Positions 3,835 to 11,947 of a DNA stretch of 36,151 nucleotides are shown here, one piece after another (positions within the stretch are counted from its first letter, which is position 1; every line of letters begins with the position of its first letter). Source of the stretch: a bacterium (GTDB lineage Bacteria > JAMCPX01); assembly GCA_021792615.1 (NCBI GenBank), contig JAJYUJ010000026.1, positions 1-36,151 of the forward strand, written 5' to 3'. A program made the position numbers and the translations under genes. The notes beneath the pieces were generated by a model. The model searched no databases, was not told the origin of the DNA, and saw only the letters and a program-made list of their open reading frames with translations.

Positions 3835-3918
3835 TTATCCTGCGTGAAAACATAGCATAAGACCTTTCTTTGGTAAATCTTATTCAGAGATCCTGGGGGG
3901 GAATAGGTCACCCATTGA

Positions 3919-4057
3919 CAGGCTGTTGAAAAACTCGGATTACTGTCATTGCGATCGAAGTAAAGCAATCTCGGTTTTTACAAATCACTAAGTTATAGAT
4001 TGCTTCGTCGCAAAATCGTTCCTCGCAATGACATACTTGGGCTTTTTCAAAAGTCTG
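3919..4057. repeat. MITE-like inverted-repeat element, 139 bp
   Basis: The two ends are imperfect inverted repeats of about 36 nt. The left end reads CAGGCTGTTGAAAAAC and then TGTCATTGCGA. The right end, reverse-complemented, reads CAGACTTTTGAAAAAGC and then TGTCATTGCGA. Inside is a second inverted pair, AAGCAATCT (3963-3971) and AGATTGCTT. There is no coding capacity. The shape suits a transposase-dependent miniature element or a large REP-type hairpin. It accounts for most of the 339-bp gap between the lipoprotein and the cyclase. Confidence 0.65.
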
Positions 4058-4123
4058 TACAGCCCTGACCTTAGTCTTTCAATGACGGGTTCGCGACAAC
4101 ACGAAAACAGACTGCTCACACTG

Positions 4124-4151
4124 TTGACTTTTCTCATATCGCCATTGTAAA
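4124..4151 (+). promoter_or_regulatory. Candidate promoter of the cyclase-pheA operon
   Basis: TTGACT (4124-4129) and TGTAAA (4146-4151) are separated by 16 nt just upstream of the ATG at 4162. The -35 is good and the -10 is weak. No clear Shine-Dalgarno precedes the ATG. Confidence 0.3.
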
Positions 4152-4161
4152 GAATTATATT

Positions 4162-6048
4162 ATGTTGAAGAATTTACTGGGAAAAAGCCTTGCATACAGA
4201 CTAACGGCATTCATGGTACTCGTGGTTGTCACAACGCTCGGTATCGCAATTTTTCTTTATATCTACCTTGAAAAAGATTTTGCCTATACAACTGCAGAGT
4301 ATCAATTTTCTTTAATCGACAGAACATTCGAGGAACTTATTTCTTATACCAACGGCAAGGACCACAGCATTCAGCCGCAACATATCATCGAAAAACTCGG
4401 AGAGAATGCCAGTATTCATTACATAACACTTTACAACAATAACGGAAAACCTATCATATCAAGCGTCAGTTCCCTGCAAGAGCCGTTAAGTGCAAAAAAA
4501 CTAAAGGAACTTGAAAACCTTTCTTACAACCATTCCATAACAGCGATGTCAGCAAATACTCTTGATTATATTGCACCGATCAAACTGAGGGTGAGCTGCC
4601 GGCAATGCCACACAAACGGCAGCACACTCGGCTTTATAAAGATTAGCTCTTCTTACTCCACGCTCTACAAGCACACCTACGATATGGCTAAAAAACTCGG
4701 TATCATTTTTTTAGCTGTCCTGCTTGTTTTCGGAGTAGCTTCCATATTTATTTCGGAACTTATTGTCGTGCGGCCTTTAAAGGAATTCGTAGCTCTGATC
4801 CATAAAGCTGAACTCAACAATTTTCTTCCCAGAAGTAAGCTGACACGTCAGGACGAGATCGGAGAAATCGAAGATAATTTCAACCAAATGTTGTCAAGAA
4901 TAACCAATCTCATGGCTACCAGCGTTGAGAAAGAACGGGAACTCGTCTTTGTAAAGGAAGAACTGAAATATAAGGAACTGCTTGAAGCACGATCCGAACA
5001 GATAGAGAAGGTAAACAAGGAGCTCGAAGAGAGCGTAAAGGAATTATCGATGCTGTTCAATTTCGGGCAGTACATCATATCGACCGTGGATATGAACGAG
5101 CTGCTCCGCATCATAACCACCGCAATCGTGGACACGCTCAACTATAAAGAATGCGCAATCCTCTTCAAGGAGGACAACCTGTTACGGATAGTTTCGGCAT
5201 GGGGTTTCGAAGACAATGCAAAGCTGATTGGCATAGAGTTCAGTCTTGAGGAAGGAATAAGCGGCAACGTAGCAACGAGCGGCAAGCCCATGCTTATCAA
5301 CGATACCAGTAAAGAATCGAGGTACCTGCACTACAAAGGACAGATACAGAAAGAAGGTGCTTTCCTCAGCGTCCCGCTTAAATACAAAAATACCGTTATC
5401 GGGGTCTTAAACGTCAGCAACGATATGCCCGGCAGCCTTACAAAAAAGGATATCGATTTTCTGACCGCAATAAGCGCGCAGATCGCAGTCGTCATAGAAA
5501 ATGCAAGTCTTTACGAACAAACGAAAGAACTGTCCATTACGGACGATCTCACCGGATTGTTCAACCGGCGGCACATGCGCGTAATCCTTGACAAAGAATG
5601 GGAGCGGGCAAACAGGTACTCGCAGCCCCTTTCACTCTTGATGTTAGACCTGGACCTCTTCAAAGGGTACAACGATAAGTTCGGCCACCTCAGGGGAGAT
5701 GAGGCGCTTGCCATCCTCTCACAAATAATAAAAATGAACATACGTGGTATCGATGTGCCGATACGGTACGGCGGTGAAGAATTCTTAATAATACTCCCGG
5801 ACACCAGTTCCGCCGGAGCAACGGCAACAGCGGAAAAGCTGCGCAAAGCGATAGCCGATGCCTTTACACAAAACAATATTCCGACGCTCACGATAAGCAT
5901 CGGGATAGTGTCCTATCCCGAGCAGGTATTCGATACCATACATGAGTTTTTGTACGCATCCGATATCGCCCTGTACGAGGCGAAAAGAAGAGGACGCAAT
6001 ACCACGGTAAACTATGACGGTAAATCCATGCAGGAGAACAATAAATGA
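4162..6048 (+). CDS. Membrane diguanylate cyclase with periplasmic CxxCH motif, HAMP, GAF and GGDEF domains
   Basis: This 628-residue sensor should make cyclic di-GMP from two GTP at the inner membrane. In order: TM1 at 15-36; a periplasmic domain at 37-177 with the c-type heme motif CRQCH at 146-150; TM2 at 178-200; HAMP at about 200-253; a coiled coil to 295; GAF at about 305-450; and GGDEF at 456-620. The active-site motif is GGEEF (537-541), which is catalytically competent. RGID (528-531) lies five residues before it, the standard inhibitory I-site, so product feedback is expected. The heme motif suggests redox or gas sensing, as in Tll0287-like heme sensors; that part is inference. The stop overlaps the pheA start (ATGA), implying translational coupling. 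Confidence 0.93.
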   Translation: MLKNLLGKSLAYRLTAFMVLVVVTTLGIAIFLYIYLEKDFAYTTAEYQFSLIDRTFEELISYTNGKDHSIQPQHIIEKLGENASIHYITLYNNNGKPIISSVSSLQEPLSAKKLKELENLSYNHSITAMSANTLDYIAPIKLRVSCRQCHTNGSTLGFIKISSSYSTLYKHTYDMAKKLGIIFLAVLLVFGVASIFISELIVVRPLKEFVALIHKAELNNFLPRSKLTRQDEIGEIEDNFNQMLSRITNLMATSVEKERELVFVKEELKYKELLEARSEQIEKVNKELEESVKELSMLFNFGQYIISTVDMNELLRIITTAIVDTLNYKECAILFKEDNLLRIVSAWGFEDNAKLIGIEFSLEEGISGNVATSGKPMLINDTSKESRYLHYKGQIQKEGAFLSVPLKYKNTVIGVLNVSNDMPGSLTKKDIDFLTAISAQIAVVIENASLYEQTKELSITDDLTGLFNRRHMRVILDKEWERANRYSQPLSLLMLDLDLFKGYNDKFGHLRGDEALAILSQIIKMNIRGIDVPIRYGGEEFLIILPDTSSAGATATAEKLRKAIADAFTQNNIPTLTISIGIVSYPEQVFDTIHEFLYASDIALYEAKRRGRNTTVNYDGKSMQENNK

Positions 6049-7133
6049 TCAATAATAATGTCAGCGACTTAAGGAAACAGATTGACGCCATCGATAATAA
6101 GCTCCTGGAACTCCTGAACCGCAGGATGGCGATAGCAATCGATATAAACAAAGAAAAGAAAAAAACATCTGCTCCCGTGTATTATCCGTCGAGAGAGGCC
6201 TTCATCGTCAACAGGCTTGTGCGGCAGAACAAAGGACAGTTGAAGAACGAATTCATAAAGCACATATTCAAGGAAATTTTTTCTGCTTCAAGGGCATCCG
6301 TAACACCTCCCAAAATAGCATACCTCGGTCCCGAAGGTGCATGGGCACATCAGGCAGCACTGCTTGAGTTTGGGAATTCATCCCCTCTCATGCCGGCAAA
6401 AAACATCTCCGAGATCTTCAACGAGGTCGAATACAGCAACTGCGATTTCGGCGTTGTCCCCATTGAAAACTCCATGGAAGGCACGGTTCCGCAAACGCTC
6501 GACCGTTTTATAGACTCAAACCTGCTTATCGCACGTGAAATATTTGTTCCCATAACCTATGTGCTCGCGGTAAAAAAACGAATCTCCTTGAAGGATATCA
6601 GGAAAGTATATTCCCACCCGCAGGCCATCGCACAGTGCAGGAGATGGATCCGGGAGAAGCTTCCGAACGCCATGACCGTGGATACGGACAGCACGAGCCA
6701 GGCCGCAAAAATTGTACAGCATTCAGGCTCATCCGTGGCTATCGTCAGCGAGCTTGCGGCGAGGCTCTACAAGCTCAAGATACTCGCGAGCAGGCTCGAA
6801 GAAAATCCCAACAATGTGACCAGGTTCGTTGTCATAGGAAAGATCATGCCCGACAGGACGGACAACGACAAGACATCGATTATTTTTGCGGTAAAACACC
6901 GGTCCGGAGCATTATACGCTGCTTTGAAACCGTTTTCAGACTACAACGTAAACCTGACAAAGATAGAATCAAGACCTCTGAAAAAGAAGGCGTGGGAATA
7001 TCTTTTCTTTGTGGACATCGATGGACATATTGAGGATCAGAAGATCAAGAAGGCCATCGCAGCACTGAAGCTCCACACGGTGTTTTTCAAGTTTCTTGGT
7101 TCGTATCCGAAAACAAAACAGGAGAATCTATGA
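6045..7133 (+). CDS. pheA: Bifunctional chorismate mutase / prephenate dehydratase
   Basis: This cytosolic enzyme converts chorismate to prephenate and then to phenylpyruvate for phenylalanine synthesis. The chorismate mutase domain spans about 1-85 (LRKQIDAIDNKLLELLNRR). The dehydratase domain spans about 90-270, starting IAYLGPEGAWAHQAA and carrying the catalytic TRF motif at 259-261. A C-terminal ACT domain (277-355) contains ESRP at 308-311, the Phe-binding motif, so allosteric feedback by phenylalanine is expected. At 362 residues it has the usual fused P-protein length. It overlaps the cyclase upstream and hisC downstream by 4 bp each. Confidence 0.96.
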   Translation: MINNNVSDLRKQIDAIDNKLLELLNRRMAIAIDINKEKKKTSAPVYYPSREAFIVNRLVRQNKGQLKNEFIKHIFKEIFSASRASVTPPKIAYLGPEGAWAHQAALLEFGNSSPLMPAKNISEIFNEVEYSNCDFGVVPIENSMEGTVPQTLDRFIDSNLLIAREIFVPITYVLAVKKRISLKDIRKVYSHPQAIAQCRRWIREKLPNAMTVDTDSTSQAAKIVQHSGSSVAIVSELAARLYKLKILASRLEENPNNVTRFVVIGKIMPDRTDNDKTSIIFAVKHRSGALYAALKPFSDYNVNLTKIESRPLKKKAWEYLFFVDIDGHIEDQKIKKAIAALKLHTVFFKFLGSYPKTKQENL

Positions 7134-8242
7134 CGTATAAATTCATTCCTCCCTATATAAGAGACATTACGCCCTACCCCCCCGGCAAACCGATTGAAGA
7201 GGTAGAGAGAGAACTCGGCATCAAAAATTCGGTCAAAATAGCATCGAACGAGAACCCGCTGGGTACGTCTCCCCGTGCCATTCAGGCCATTCGGAAGGCA
7301 CTGAAAAGCCTGAACCGCTATCCGGACGGAAGTGCATTTTATCTGAAAAACAAATTGTCCGCACTGCATAAGGTATCGCCGGGATCCCTGGTCATTGGGA
7401 ACGGATCAAACGAGCTTATCGAACTTATCATACGGACGTTCATTCAACCGGGCGATGAGGCCATCATATCCGATCCGAGCTTTCTCATCTATTCTATCAC
7501 GGTGAAGGCGTCCGGCGGCAAATCCGCAATTATCAGGCTCAGACACGATTATAGCTACGATGTTACGGGAATAATAAAGGCAATCGGCAAACGGACACGG
7601 CTCATTTTCATTTCAAACCCGAACAACCCGACGGGTACGATCCTGTCCAAAAAAGACTATGCATGGCTTCTCCAGAGAGTACCCGAACATGTTGTCGTTG
7701 TAGACGATGCTGCGTACCGGGAATTTGTCCAATCCAGAGATTATCCGGACGGTATCGATTACCTGAAGGATAAAGCCGTAAACCTTATCGTCCTGCGCAC
7801 GTTCTCAAAACTGTACGGCCTTGCGGGACTCAGGATAGGATACGGCGTTACAACCGAGGAACTGGCAGGCTACCTTGACCGCGTGCGCCAGCCGTTCAAT
7901 GTCAACACTCTCGCACAAACAGCGGCAATCGCAGCTCTCGAAGACAAAGCATTCGTAAAAAGAACGCTTGCAAACAACCGGGAAGGCCTGGATTATCTGT
8001 ACCGGGCGCTTGAACGTATGAACATCTCGTTCCTGCCGACACAGGCGAATTTTTTCCTCGTACGTGTCTCTCCGTTCATGTCCGCCAAACAGGCATTCGA
8101 ATCCCTGTTGCACAAAGGCGTCATCGTCAGGGACATGACGAGTTACGGACTTGGAGATTATATACGCATAAACGTAGGCACACCGTCCGAGAACAGGAAA
8201 TTTATCAAGGAGTTCAGTGAAATTCTGAAAACCAGGCTATGA
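7130..8242 (+). CDS. hisC: HisC-family aminotransferase, probably acting on aromatic substrates
   Basis: This 370-residue, class I/II, PLP-dependent aminotransferase is of the histidinol-phosphate type. Visible motifs are SNENPLG (39-45), NPNNPTG (163-169), the Asp of VVDDAAY (192) and the PLP lysine in TFSKLYGLAGLR (K227). It sits between pheA and tyrA with ATGA overlaps on both sides and no other his gene nearby. I infer that it transaminates phenylpyruvate, hydroxyphenylpyruvate or prephenate, as some HisC proteins do; histidinol-phosphate activity may be retained. Substrate cannot be settled from sequence. Confidence 0.92.
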   Translation: MTYKFIPPYIRDITPYPPGKPIEEVERELGIKNSVKIASNENPLGTSPRAIQAIRKALKSLNRYPDGSAFYLKNKLSALHKVSPGSLVIGNGSNELIELIIRTFIQPGDEAIISDPSFLIYSITVKASGGKSAIIRLRHDYSYDVTGIIKAIGKRTRLIFISNPNNPTGTILSKKDYAWLLQRVPEHVVVVDDAAYREFVQSRDYPDGIDYLKDKAVNLIVLRTFSKLYGLAGLRIGYGVTTEELAGYLDRVRQPFNVNTLAQTAAIAALEDKAFVKRTLANNREGLDYLYRALERMNISFLPTQANFFLVRVSPFMSAKQAFESLLHKGVIVRDMTSYGLGDYIRINVGTPSENRKFIKEFSEILKTRL

Positions 8243-9111
8243 GTAAACCTTTTTATGATCAGATCGCCATAATCGGTACGGGCATGATGGGCACGTCTCT
8301 CGGTTTAGCAATTAAAAAAAACGGCCTCTGCAATAAGATTATCGGCATTGACAAAAACTTTGAAAACCTCAAGGCTGCCAAAAGTCTTTCCGCGATAGAC
8401 AGCTATACGGATTGTCTCAAAGACGGCATAGCGGATGCAGTTCTTATTATCTTTGCGATACCCATCCTTGCAACATTTGAAGTGGCCAAGCGGATCGTTT
8501 ATGCGGTGAAGAAGGATGCCCTCATTACGGATATCGGCAGCACCAAGGGTGAGGTCGTTCAGAAGATGACAGAGCTTTTTTACGGGCACAGCAATTATAT
8601 CGGCAGCCATCCTATCACCGGCACCGAGAAGTCCGGTGCCATCAATGCCATCCACGGTCTCTACGACGGGAAAAAATGCATCATCACCCCTATAGACAAA
8701 ACAGAACGGTTTGCTGTCGATGCGATCACGAAATTCTGGGAATCTACCGGAAGTGAGGTCGTCGTGATGGACCCTTATGAACATGACAGGGTTATGGCGA
8801 TGGTTTCGCACCTTCCCCACGTCGTTGCGTATGCACTCGCGGGAAGCGTCATGGAACAGCAAAAAAACGGCAATACGCTTTTCCCGTATGCCGGAGGCGG
8901 CTTAAAAGACTACACGCGCATAGCGGGCAGTGATCCCGCTATGTGGCGCGATATATTTATATCGAACGCCAAGGAGATCCTGAATGCGATCGATCAATTT
9001 TCGAGAATGATGGAACGGTTACGCCGCATGATAAAAGAAAAGGACATGAAAGGAATACACGTTTTGCTCGAAGATATAAAAGAGGTAAGGAGGCACATTG
9101 CGGACAGATGA
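8239..9111 (+). CDS. tyrA: Prephenate dehydrogenase (TyrA family)
   Basis: This 290-residue NAD(P)-dependent enzyme oxidatively decarboxylates prephenate, or arogenate, for tyrosine synthesis. The Rossmann motif GTGMMG is at 13-18. STKG (101-104), the SHPITG block with H124, and SHLPH (190-194) are TyrA hallmarks. There is no chorismate mutase or ACT extension, so this is the short monofunctional form. It starts 4 bp inside hisC and ends 4 bp inside aroA, so it is part of the same mRNA. Confidence 0.95.
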   Translation: MSKPFYDQIAIIGTGMMGTSLGLAIKKNGLCNKIIGIDKNFENLKAAKSLSAIDSYTDCLKDGIADAVLIIFAIPILATFEVAKRIVYAVKKDALITDIGSTKGEVVQKMTELFYGHSNYIGSHPITGTEKSGAINAIHGLYDGKKCIITPIDKTERFAVDAITKFWESTGSEVVVMDPYEHDRVMAMVSHLPHVVAYALAGSVMEQQKNGNTLFPYAGGGLKDYTRIAGSDPAMWRDIFISNAKEILNAIDQFSRMMERLRRMIKEKDMKGIHVLLEDIKEVRRHIADR

Positions 9112-10406
9112 ACAACGGGGATAAAATATCTTTTGCACCGGTCGAACGGCTTGAAGGATCGATAACCGTCCCCGGGGACAAATCCATATCTCACCGGGCA
9201 TTATTTGTTTCGGCTGTTGCTTCGGGCATAAGCAGAATTGACGATATCTTGATCGCCGACGATACGATGAGCACCGCACAATGCCTGCGCGCACTCGGCA
9301 CCGATATCGAAATAAAAGATAAAACAGCGGTGATAGCCGGAAAAGGTATCCAGGGATTCAAAGAGCCTTCCCAGATTCTCGACGCAGGGAACTCGGGCAC
9401 CACGGCAAGGCTGATACTCGGTCTTTTAAGCACCCAGAACTTTTTCTCGGTCCTGACAGGGGATAATTCGTTGAGGACAAGACCGATGAAAAGGATAACC
9501 ATCCCCCTTGCGGCAATGGGAGCATCGGTCGACGGCAGGGACCATGCGAACTATCTTCCCCTCTCGGTACGCGGTAACAGGTTAAAGGGCATCGATTATG
9601 CCATGCCGACAGCCTCGGCACAGGTCAAGACGGGCATTCTCCTGGCATCACTGGGCGCTAAGGGTGTCATGACGGTACGGGAGCCCTTCCCCACGCGTGA
9701 CCATACGGAACGCATGTTCAAGGCGAGCGGTGTCGACGTAACGATTTCCGATAAGACCATACAGCTCGCGTGCTCGCAAAAGCCATTACCGCTCAACATA
9801 AGGGTGCCCGGGGATTTTTCTTCCGCCGCATTTTTTATGGGTGCCGGGATTATAGCAAGGCGCTCCGACATACTCATTACCCATGTGGGTATAAACCCGG
9901 GGAGAACGGGCTTTATCGATATATTAAAAAAGATGGGTGCTTCACTGGAGGTTACCAACACGCGGTTTGAAGCGGGAGAGCCTGTTGCAGACATACGGGT
10001 CAGGCAATCAGAACTCCGGGGAACCGTCATCGACGACAAGGAACTGATAGTCAGGTCGATCGATGAACTACCGCTGCTTGCCGTGCTTGCGGCGTATGCC
10101 AGGGGACAGACCGTGATAAAGAACGCGGCAGAACTCAGGGTAAAGGAATCAGACCGTATTAAAGCAGTCGTGGACGGTCTGCTGCATATAGGAATAAAAG
10201 CGCGGGAATTCCCGGACGGTCTCAGCGTCGAAGGAGGAACCGTAAAAGGCGGTTTTGTGTCAAGCTATGGCGATCACCGGATTGCAATGGCTTTTGCGGT
10301 TGCCTCGGTATCCAGTGAAAAAGAAATTTCTATAGATAATTTCGACGCCGTAAGTATTTCTTTCCCCGAATTCATTACCATATTCAACACCCTGAGGCCC
10401 GCATGA
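9108..10406 (+). CDS. aroA: 3-phosphoshikimate 1-carboxyvinyltransferase (EPSP synthase)
   Basis: This enzyme joins shikimate-3-phosphate and phosphoenolpyruvate in the shikimate pathway. The frame is open back to 8943, but the start is set at ATG 9108, which overlaps the tyrA stop (ATGA) and gives a normal 432-residue protein. PGDKSISHRAL (22-32) carries the Lys, Ser and Arg substrate ligands. LDAGNSGTTARL (91-102) is the PEP-binding loop, RTRPM follows, and GDHRIAMAFA lies near the C-terminus. All expected motifs are intact. It overlaps cmk-ispH by 4 bp. Confidence 0.96.
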   Translation: MNNGDKISFAPVERLEGSITVPGDKSISHRALFVSAVASGISRIDDILIADDTMSTAQCLRALGTDIEIKDKTAVIAGKGIQGFKEPSQILDAGNSGTTARLILGLLSTQNFFSVLTGDNSLRTRPMKRITIPLAAMGASVDGRDHANYLPLSVRGNRLKGIDYAMPTASAQVKTGILLASLGAKGVMTVREPFPTRDHTERMFKASGVDVTISDKTIQLACSQKPLPLNIRVPGDFSSAAFFMGAGIIARRSDILITHVGINPGRTGFIDILKKMGASLEVTNTRFEAGEPVADIRVRQSELRGTVIDDKELIVRSIDELPLLAVLAAYARGQTVIKNAAELRVKESDRIKAVVDGLLHIGIKAREFPDGLSVEGGTVKGGFVSSYGDHRIAMAFAVASVSSEKEISIDNFDAVSISFPEFITIFNTLRPA

Positions 10407-11947
10407 AAAAACATACCATCATAGCCATTGACGGCCCATCGGGCAGCGGCAAGAGTACCGCGGCAGCGGGACTGGCACAGGGAATGGGGTACGACTATAT
10501 CAATAGCGGCAGTATCTACAGGGCCATTGCCCTCAAATCGATACAGAACCATGTTCCCGCCAGCGAAGCACACGCCCTTATGGAAATTGCACGGAACACC
10601 GTCATTGAAATAGCAAAGAAAAATGGCACTTGGTCTCTTATCATGGACAACAAGGATGTTTCTCAAGAACTGAAAAATACAGACGTCGCCCAGGCAGCGT
10701 CGCAGATATCGGTTTTCCCGGAGATCAGGGATACCGTGAACTCCCTTATTCACGGCATGATACGCGGCAATACCGTGGTCGAAGGCAGGGACATCGGAAC
10801 GGTCGTTTTCCCGTCTGCCGAAATAAAATTTTTTATAACGGCATCTCCGGAGATCAGGGCAATGAGGAGGTATGAAGAACTGAAAGCGACTCCCCAGGCC
10901 ATGCCCTATGAACAACTGCTGAAAGAAATAGAGATGCGCGATCTCCGGGACAGCCACAGGGTCATAGCACCCTTAAAACCCGCTGACGACGCAATCCTCG
11001 TAGACACAACAACCATGGAACTCAATACGGTCATTGCTTCTTTATACAATGAAACAAAAATACGGTTGTCCCAGAAATATATCGATACCGTCAATGGCGT
11101 CAGATTCTACACCACGGTTTCTGCCGGATTTTGCTTCGGTGTAAAGAGAGCAATCGATATAGCAATCAAAACAAGCAAACGGCACAACGATATTTACACG
11201 CTGGGCCCCCTTATCCATAACCCTCAGGAGGTCAAACGGCTCGAGGAAATAGGCATAAAGCCCGTTGAGGACATCGGGAAAATAGCATCCGGAACGCTCG
11301 TTTACCGCTCTCATGGAGTTACCACGGAAGAAGCGAAAAATGCAGGGGAAAAAGGGCTCAATATCATAGATGCGACCTGCCCGTTCGTCACCAGATCCCA
11401 GCGATTGGTCAGAGTTCTCGCGAAAAAAGGCTTTCATGTGGTTATCGTCGGCGATGTGAAACATCCCGAGGTAAAGAGCCTCTTGAGCTACGCATTGCCG
11501 CACCAGGTGACCGTTGTAAAAAGCCAGGATGAGCTTCCCCCGCTCTGGAACACCAAAAAACTAGCCGTACTGGCCCAGACCACGCAATCCATGGAGAATT
11601 TTAAAAAAATTATCTCTGTTCTTCTTGACAGTGTCTATGAGCTTGCCATTTATAATACAATATGTGATGCTACAAAGATACGGCAGGACGAATCTGCCAC
11701 GCTCGCAAAAATGGTCGATGTTATGTTCGTCATAGGCGGTTTTAACAGTTCCAATACGAATAAACTTGCAAATATATGTAAAGCGATCAATCCTCATACA
11801 TACCACGTAGAACATGAAGACCAAATAAAACAGGAAATGTTGATCGGTGCAAAAAAGGTTGGTATTACAGCAGGAGCCTCAACACCGATATGGTTGATAA
11901 AAGACGTGCTCAAAAAATTGAAAGAGATGAGTAAAGGTTTGCGATAG
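10403..11947 (+). CDS. cmk-ispH: Fused cytidylate kinase (Cmk) and HMBPP reductase (IspH)
   Basis: One uninterrupted 514-residue frame encodes two enzymes. Residues 1-225 are cytidylate kinase, which phosphorylates CMP/dCMP: Walker A GPSGSGKS (11-18), GRDIGTVVFP (128-137) and the Arg-rich RDLRDSHR lid (179-186). Residues 234-514 are IspH, the last enzyme of the MEP isoprenoid pathway. Its three [4Fe-4S] cysteines are C244, C326 and C421. Its substrate histidines are H272, H304 and H354, with E356 the likely proton donor. The linker is short and there is no internal stop. In many relatives cmk, ispH and rpsA are separate neighbours, so fusion of the first two is the notable feature. Both halves look active. 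Confidence 0.95.
   Translation: MKKHTIIAIDGPSGSGKSTAAAGLAQGMGYDYINSGSIYRAIALKSIQNHVPASEAHALMEIARNTVIEIAKKNGTWSLIMDNKDVSQELKNTDVAQAASQISVFPEIRDTVNSLIHGMIRGNTVVEGRDIGTVVFPSAEIKFFITASPEIRAMRRYEELKATPQAMPYEQLLKEIEMRDLRDSHRVIAPLKPADDAILVDTTTMELNTVIASLYNETKIRLSQKYIDTVNGVRFYTTVSAGFCFGVKRAIDIAIKTSKRHNDIYTLGPLIHNPQEVKRLEEIGIKPVEDIGKIASGTLVYRSHGVTTEEAKNAGEKGLNIIDATCPFVTRSQRLVRVLAKKGFHVVIVGDVKHPEVKSLLSYALPHQVTVVKSQDELPPLWNTKKLAVLAQTTQSMENFKKIISVLLDSVYELAIYNTICDATKIRQDESATLAKMVDVMFVIGGFNSSNTNKLANICKAINPHTYHVEHEDQIKQEMLIGAKKVGITAGASTPIWLIKDVLKKLKEMSKGLR

Follow-up and report, generated by a model that had tools for sequence, protein, structure and literature searches.

The cyclase gene and the operon that it heads

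The window (the whole stretch of DNA analysed, 36,151 nucleotides) corresponds to contig 49 in a bacterial genome of 2.54 Mb that is 99.55% complete. On its forward strand, a diguanylate cyclase gene stands directly before pheA and four further genes, and the layout is as follows:

4162 to 6048, + strand: diguanylate cyclase gene, 628 residues, with the predicted order TM1, periplasmic c-heme-type Cache, TM2, HAMP, coiled coil, GAF, GGDEF
6032 to 6036, + strand: AGGAG, Shine-Dalgarno of pheA, within the 3' end of the cyclase gene
6045 to 6048, + strand: ATGA stop/start overlap of the cyclase gene and pheA, read from the sequence
6045 to 7133, + strand: pheA, 362 residues, with chorismate mutase (CM_2), prephenate dehydratase (PDT) and ACT domains, all above cut-offs
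7130 to 8242, + strand: hisC-like aminotransferase (class I/II), by Pfam
8239 to 9111, + strand: tyrA, prephenate dehydrogenase, by Pfam
9108 to 10406, + strand: aroA, EPSP synthase, by Pfam, with a putative start at the ATG that lies in the overlap with tyrA
10403 to 11947, + strand: CMP kinase-IspH (LytB) fusion (cmk-ispH), by Pfam

The sequence-only reading of this locus had described the cyclase stop as overlapping the pheA start, which is indeed the case, and had taken this overlap as the mark of a translational coupling of this pair of genes. However, the 4-bp ATGA is shared by five consecutive junctions (6045-6048, 7130-7133, 8239-8242, 9108-9111 and 10403-10406), and pheA possesses its own Shine-Dalgarno. 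Since the four junctions after the first carry the same overlap, it represents the normal spacing of the operon, and we rejected it as a sign of special coupling.

Conservation of the junction in the phylum

Conservation was followed in nine genomes of the source phylum, which is small and apparently uncultured; they represent one family and four genera, five of them coming from a single genus. The cyclase is encoded in all nine, always directly 5' of pheA and on the same strand, with a spacing of -4 to +15 nt (ATGA in eight genomes and a 15-nt gap in G007); in G002 the contig stops within pheA, the remainder of which opens contig 102. The gene order, common strand and tight spacing expected for a conserved operon were found in nine of nine genomes. 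The operon cyclase-pheA-hisC-tyrA is real and conserved across the phylum, as had been guessed for the cyclase-pheA junction, and no relative without the cyclase at this locus, a finding that the sequence-only reading had named, along with transcripts separating at the junction, as the sign of an accidental coupling, appeared among the nine. Identity between cyclase orthologues goes down to 55% with the junction and the heme motif still kept, and because both persist to this level, they are not attributable to chance. The cyclase is under purifying selection, with a dN/dS of 0.07-0.13 in genome pairs with unsaturated dS, values similar to those of pheA (0.05-0.07 in G000 pairs).

The genes 5' of the cyclase vary and comprise an NHL-repeat gene, a fumarylacetoacetase-like gene with a small regulator-like one (by eye), a NapC/NrfH-type multiheme cytochrome gene and a penicillin-binding protein gene. 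The multiheme cytochrome is encoded directly upstream of the cyclase in G008 and ~3.7 kb upstream in G006 (L052 6127-7515; L050 2894-4411). On the other side, aroA no longer comes after tyrA in G006 and G008, where cyclase-pheA-hisC-tyrA stands alone behind different upstream genes. As for the cmk-ispH fusion, a full-length match is present in G004 and G007, and in G005 the match runs to the contig end.

A second GAF-GGDEF gene, conserved in the phylum (L255 5602-6669, contig 50 in the source genome), likewise has constant upstream neighbours, a ThiC-like gene (named by eye, from its similarity to an ORF in L222) and g4, in those genomes that show both, and its downstream side varies. Because this second cyclase gene keeps its neighbours too, selection on the cyclase-pheA pair does not follow from conserved adjacency alone.

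Architecture of the cyclase

The domains and motifs of the cytoplasmic part are the following:

4765 to 4902, + strand: HAMP domain (residues 202-247), PF00672, above the Pfam cut-off
5086 to 5499, + strand: GAF domain (residues 309-446), PF13185/PF01590, above the Pfam cut-off
5536 to 6000, + strand: GGDEF domain (residues 459-613), PF00990, E 1.4e-44, 152 bits for a curated cut-off of 23.8 bits
5743 to 5754, + strand: inhibitory I-site RGID (RxxD, residues 528-531), 5 residues N-terminal of GGEEF, invariant in 9/9 orthologues
5770 to 5784, + strand: catalytic GGEEF (residues 537-541), invariant in 9/9 orthologues

The protein displays what is expected of the GGDEF family, that is a domain above the cut-off, an intact GG[DE]EF and an RxxD I-site five residues before it. 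Two hydrophobic stretches at residues ~13-35 and ~178-200, judged by eye from hydropathy, flank a segment of ~140 residues, and the CRQCH motif falls between them, which by sequence places it outside the cytoplasm. In the alignment of the nine orthologues, C146, C149, H150, H68, H171, R528, D531 and the GGEEF are invariant. The anatomy first proposed for the cyclase (CRQCH, GAF, intact GGEEF and I-site) is thereby borne out by the Pfam matches and by motifs invariant in all nine genomes. The cyclase is probably a membrane sensor making c-di-GMP, with a predicted heme outside the cell membrane.

A predicted heme-type sensor domain in the periplasm

The extracytoplasmic part contains these features:

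4258 to 4710, + strand: periplasmic sensor (residues 33-183 as modelled), predicted single-Cache fold, from profile searches and a structure model
4363 to 4365, + strand: H68, hypothetical distal heme ligand, invariant, 78 residues before the first Cys of the motif
4597 to 4611, + strand: CRQCH c-type heme motif (C146-H150), its CxxCH invariant in 9/9

The structure model, a prediction from nine sequences (pLDDT 78.8, pTM 0.76), gives a single Cache fold in which the heme motif would be carried by a short helix (112-115 in model numbering) between strands 101-109 and 123-132, the third and fourth ones. Single-sequence searches yielded matches below threshold to PF21563 in eight of the nine members (20.9 bits for the sensor studied here, where 27 are needed), to a Tll0287-like profile in six of the nine, and to Cache profiles; PF11845 (cut-off 24.1 bits) was above its cut-off in 0/9 genomes of the phylum. 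When PDB chains were searched with the sensor alone as a single sequence, only chance-level matches were obtained, and a nine-row profile was required to place 3b47 (GSU0582) first and 5b82 (Tll0287) second, both of them weak matches (E 0.04 and 0.12) in which the CxxCH of the sensor aligns with that of each structure. Foldseek led from the model to Cache sensors, 3b42 among them; the top matches were Cache domains without heme, e.g. WalK, while GSU0935 took rank 5 and GSU0582 rank 23.

The sensor domain evolves fast (its identity to the three most divergent orthologues is 38-48%), and its CxxCH is still invariant in all nine. CcsA/CcmC-type cytochrome c assembly proteins are encoded in every genome, and in G000 a 447-residue ORF that is ResB-like (named by eye) adjoins the CcsA-like gene. 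Taken on sequence and model, the sensor is probably a divergent relative of the sCache_heme domains; as the curated Pfam cut-offs are not reached, we speak of a probable relative and do not file it as a member. The motif and its location suggest a covalent c-type heme on the periplasmic domain. The axial heme ligands of GSU0935 are His144 and Met60, the latter 80 residues from Cys140 (PMC8396549). Because H68 sits 78 residues before the motif Cys, we offer as a testable guess by analogy that a histidine may be the distal ligand here.

Two HAMP histidine kinases of the same genome (L059 3002-4648 and L060 2129-3736) also have N-terminal sensor regions with CxxCH. Sensing of the c-heme type seems to be widely used in the source genome.

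Promoter and translation signals

One further feature lies upstream of the operon:

4124 to 4151, + strand: promoter-like core TTGACT-N16-TGTAAA, 38 to 11 nt before the cyclase ATG, the second hexamer ending 10 nt before it

A core of the form TTGACTTTT-n10-CATTGTAAR is kept 36-38 nt upstream of the ATG in eight of the nine genomes, G007 having TTGCCT-N15-TATAAT in its place, and the second hexamer is 8-10 nt from the ATG in all nine. Among seven divergent genomes, the mean pairwise identity reaches 81% over the 28 nt of the core, compared with 37, 28 and 27% in upstream blocks. No clear Shine-Dalgarno precedes the cyclase ATG in the nine genomes, save a weak AAGG in G005, and because of this and of the short distance from the second hexamer to the ATG, the cyclase transcript would be leaderless or nearly so. 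The exact core is present as a single copy in the genome; we considered it as a regulon marker and rejected this, the other occurrences having at least two mismatches at about the control level. Just 5' of the promoter, at 3915-4065, lies a MITE-like sequence (GTCATTGCGATCGAAGTAAAGCAATCTC ... GCAATGACA) found once in the window, and related sequence is also present upstream in G003 and G004.

Near the 3' end of the cyclase gene, in codons 621-629 that hold the AGGAG of pheA, four of the five usable synonymous codons are the same in five divergent genomes, versus 53 of 365 elsewhere in the gene (binomial calculated by hand, about 0.002), and it is only at this Shine-Dalgarno that synonymous sites of the gene are frozen. 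As codons 541-620 contain no frozen synonymous block, this region gives no sign of a conserved internal promoter, and a consensus scan of the cyclase gene detected no forward terminator and forward promoters at chance level only. The core upstream of the cyclase is thus the only conserved candidate promoter that we found for the operon.

Cyclases near aromatic genes in other phyla

In other phyla, 81 pheA loci were inspected, 80 of them with at least 1 kb upstream, and no GGDEF gene lies near any of them. A GGDEF gene directly before hisC was seen in two (L141 and L222) of the 126 aromatic clusters that had 700 bp or more of upstream sequence, a count biased upward by uneven flank lengths, by some genomes being present twice and by the entry of L141 through a GGDEF search. 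GGDEF genes amount by our estimate to ~0.5-1% of the genes of a genome, which would yield about that number, so that 2/126 is near chance expectation. The first case, from another phylum (L141 3354-5699), is a GAF-GGDEF-MASE3 cyclase with an ATGA overlap with hisC-aroF-tyrA-aroA-cmk, and this type of cyclase occurs with hisC and aroF in the three genomes of that family (L145-L147 listed with L141). The second (L222 2799-3749, minus strand) comes from a third phylum, in a genome of 1.7 Mb; it encodes a cytosolic GGDEF protein of 316 residues and is flanked by birA and hisC-tyrA-cmk, with overlaps of 4 bp. Both cyclases differ in architecture and lack a heme motif. Taken as a general association, the cyclase-pheA link does not stand in view of these counts: it is a trait of one phylum. 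We had considered that cyclases might head aromatic operons in general, and dropped this as unproven.

A shared promoter as a possible reason for the conserved arrangement

The reading that we favour, with a probability of about 0.6, is that a redox/NO-type c-di-GMP sensor is co-transcribed with a housekeeping operon and owns its promoter. The operon cyclase-pheA-hisC-tyrA, usually continued by aroA and cmk-ispH, would be transcribed from one promoter abutting the cyclase ATG. The cyclase would be a one-component transmembrane sensor whose periplasmic Cache domain holds a covalent c-type heme, and we infer that a change in heme redox state or ligand (redox potential, or NO by analogy) would be passed through TM2, HAMP, the coiled coil and GAF to the GGDEF domain. 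The latter would make c-di-GMP under I-site feedback and act through PilZ proteins, which are encoded in all nine genomes, with nine matches in G000. The link to pheA would be one of co-transcription, the cyclase gene owning the operon promoter and carrying the ribosome-binding site of pheA; since both lie in or at the cyclase gene, it could not be lost or moved without harm to an essential pathway, and it would gain in return a steady, growth-linked expression. We infer that such a lock-in is the reason for the conservation, which promoter sharing would explain without any regulatory effect on Phe/Tyr. Gene order, motif invariance, the promoter core, the lack of a conserved internal promoter and purifying selection were all computed. 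The conserved core, its fixed distance to the ATG, the frozen Shine-Dalgarno of pheA and the standalone four-gene unit count in favour of a shared-promoter operon; the weak profile scores of the sensor, the model built from nine sequences and the kept neighbours of the second cyclase count against it.

Another explanation could be that c-di-GMP output and Phe/Tyr supply must match, for example if GAF read an aromatic metabolite or if cells growing attached needed both under reducing or NO stress. Such a functional coupling would fit with a junction kept phylum-wide despite rearranged flanks on both sides, with sensor and catalytic parts both being under strong purifying selection, and with the GGDEF genes overlapping the aromatic hisC in two other phyla, in one case in 3/3 genomes of a family. 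Nevertheless, we consider it unlikely: pheA loci elsewhere are devoid of GGDEF genes (0/81), the two positive clusters among 126 are near chance and have other architectures without heme motif, and aroA and cmk-ispH sit in the same operon with the same overlaps. Moreover, the literature searched, mostly outside subscription journals, gave no precedent for a cyclase-pheA operon and no paper linking c-di-GMP to aromatic synthesis. That the c-heme sensor and aromatic synthesis form one regulatory unit in the phylum, with the cyclase output or its GAF matching c-di-GMP to Phe/Tyr and with cyclases recruited to aromatic operons more than once, appears to us very unlikely.

An old gene order could also have persisted in a small lineage with no selection on the cyclase-pheA junction, as the second GAF-GGDEF gene with its ThiC-like gene and g4, and a sample of only nine genomes with five of one genus, would allow. 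We give this a low chance, however, as the junction is kept down to 55% cyclase identity with differing upstream genes and with tyrA-aroA broken in two genomes, and as the 28-bp promoter core and the pheA Shine-Dalgarno are specifically conserved. Finally, the CRQCH could belong to an ordinary ligand-binding Cache sensor without heme, in line with the unreached cut-offs of the Pfam heme families and with top fold matches such as WalK that bind none. This seems highly improbable for a CxxCH that all nine keep in a fast-evolving domain, that lies in the right compartment and that is placed as in GSU0582/Tll0287, in genomes that have cytochrome c assembly genes.

With the cyclase as putative owner of a shared promoter, the locus lends itself well to the question whether signalling and metabolic genes that are conserved neighbours stay together through function or simply through promoter ownership. 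Besides, the description of periplasmic c-heme sensors on c-di-GMP enzymes is only now beginning, and the cyclases reported here form a divergent set, invariant across a small phylum, tied to a housekeeping operon and with a possible His distal ligand.

Comparison with known heme sensors

The sCache_heme domains have a Cache fold in which strands 3 and 4 are separated by an inserted short helix with a strictly conserved CxxCH, and occur fused to GGDEF/EAL enzymes; a HAMP-linked member has NO-sensor properties, and the Pseudomonas azotoformans protein releases NO slowly and forms no stable oxygen complex (PMC12889525). Because such fusions are already described, the combination of a heme sensor with a cyclase is not new in kind. 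Like these domains (PF11845/DUF3365; GSU0582, GSU0935, Tll0287), the sensor studied here would be an extracytoplasmic Cache with a CxxCH modelled between strands 3 and 4 and fused to signalling domains, but it remains below the Pfam cut-offs, a GAF domain is added and the operon partner is fixed. Compared with GSU0935, the invariant H68 is by spacing at the place of Met60, and the distal ligand may differ. Mcp40H-20_sensor (PF21563), the family of the Geobacter chemoreceptor heme sensors (PMC8396549), gives matches in 8/9 members, the sensor studied here reaching 20.9 of the 27 bits needed, and 3b47 is the best PDB match by sequence; the output is chemotaxis there and c-di-GMP here. DcrA of Desulfovibrio vulgaris, a periplasmic c-heme chemoreceptor proposed to read redox or oxygen (PMC8396549), is likened to the cyclase by description alone and differs in its chemoreceptor output. 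A 638-residue protein from a 9-Mb genome of another phylum (L058 8324-10240, minus strand) has the same order of TM, periplasmic CTGCH, HAMP, GAF and GGEEF, with ~35% identity over residues 144-619, but is not encoded beside aromatic genes. DosC and other globin-coupled sensors are oxygen-sensing heme-b cyclases in which a heme sensor likewise governs a GGDEF domain; unlike in the cyclase studied here, their heme b is cytosolic, non-covalent and held on a globin fold.
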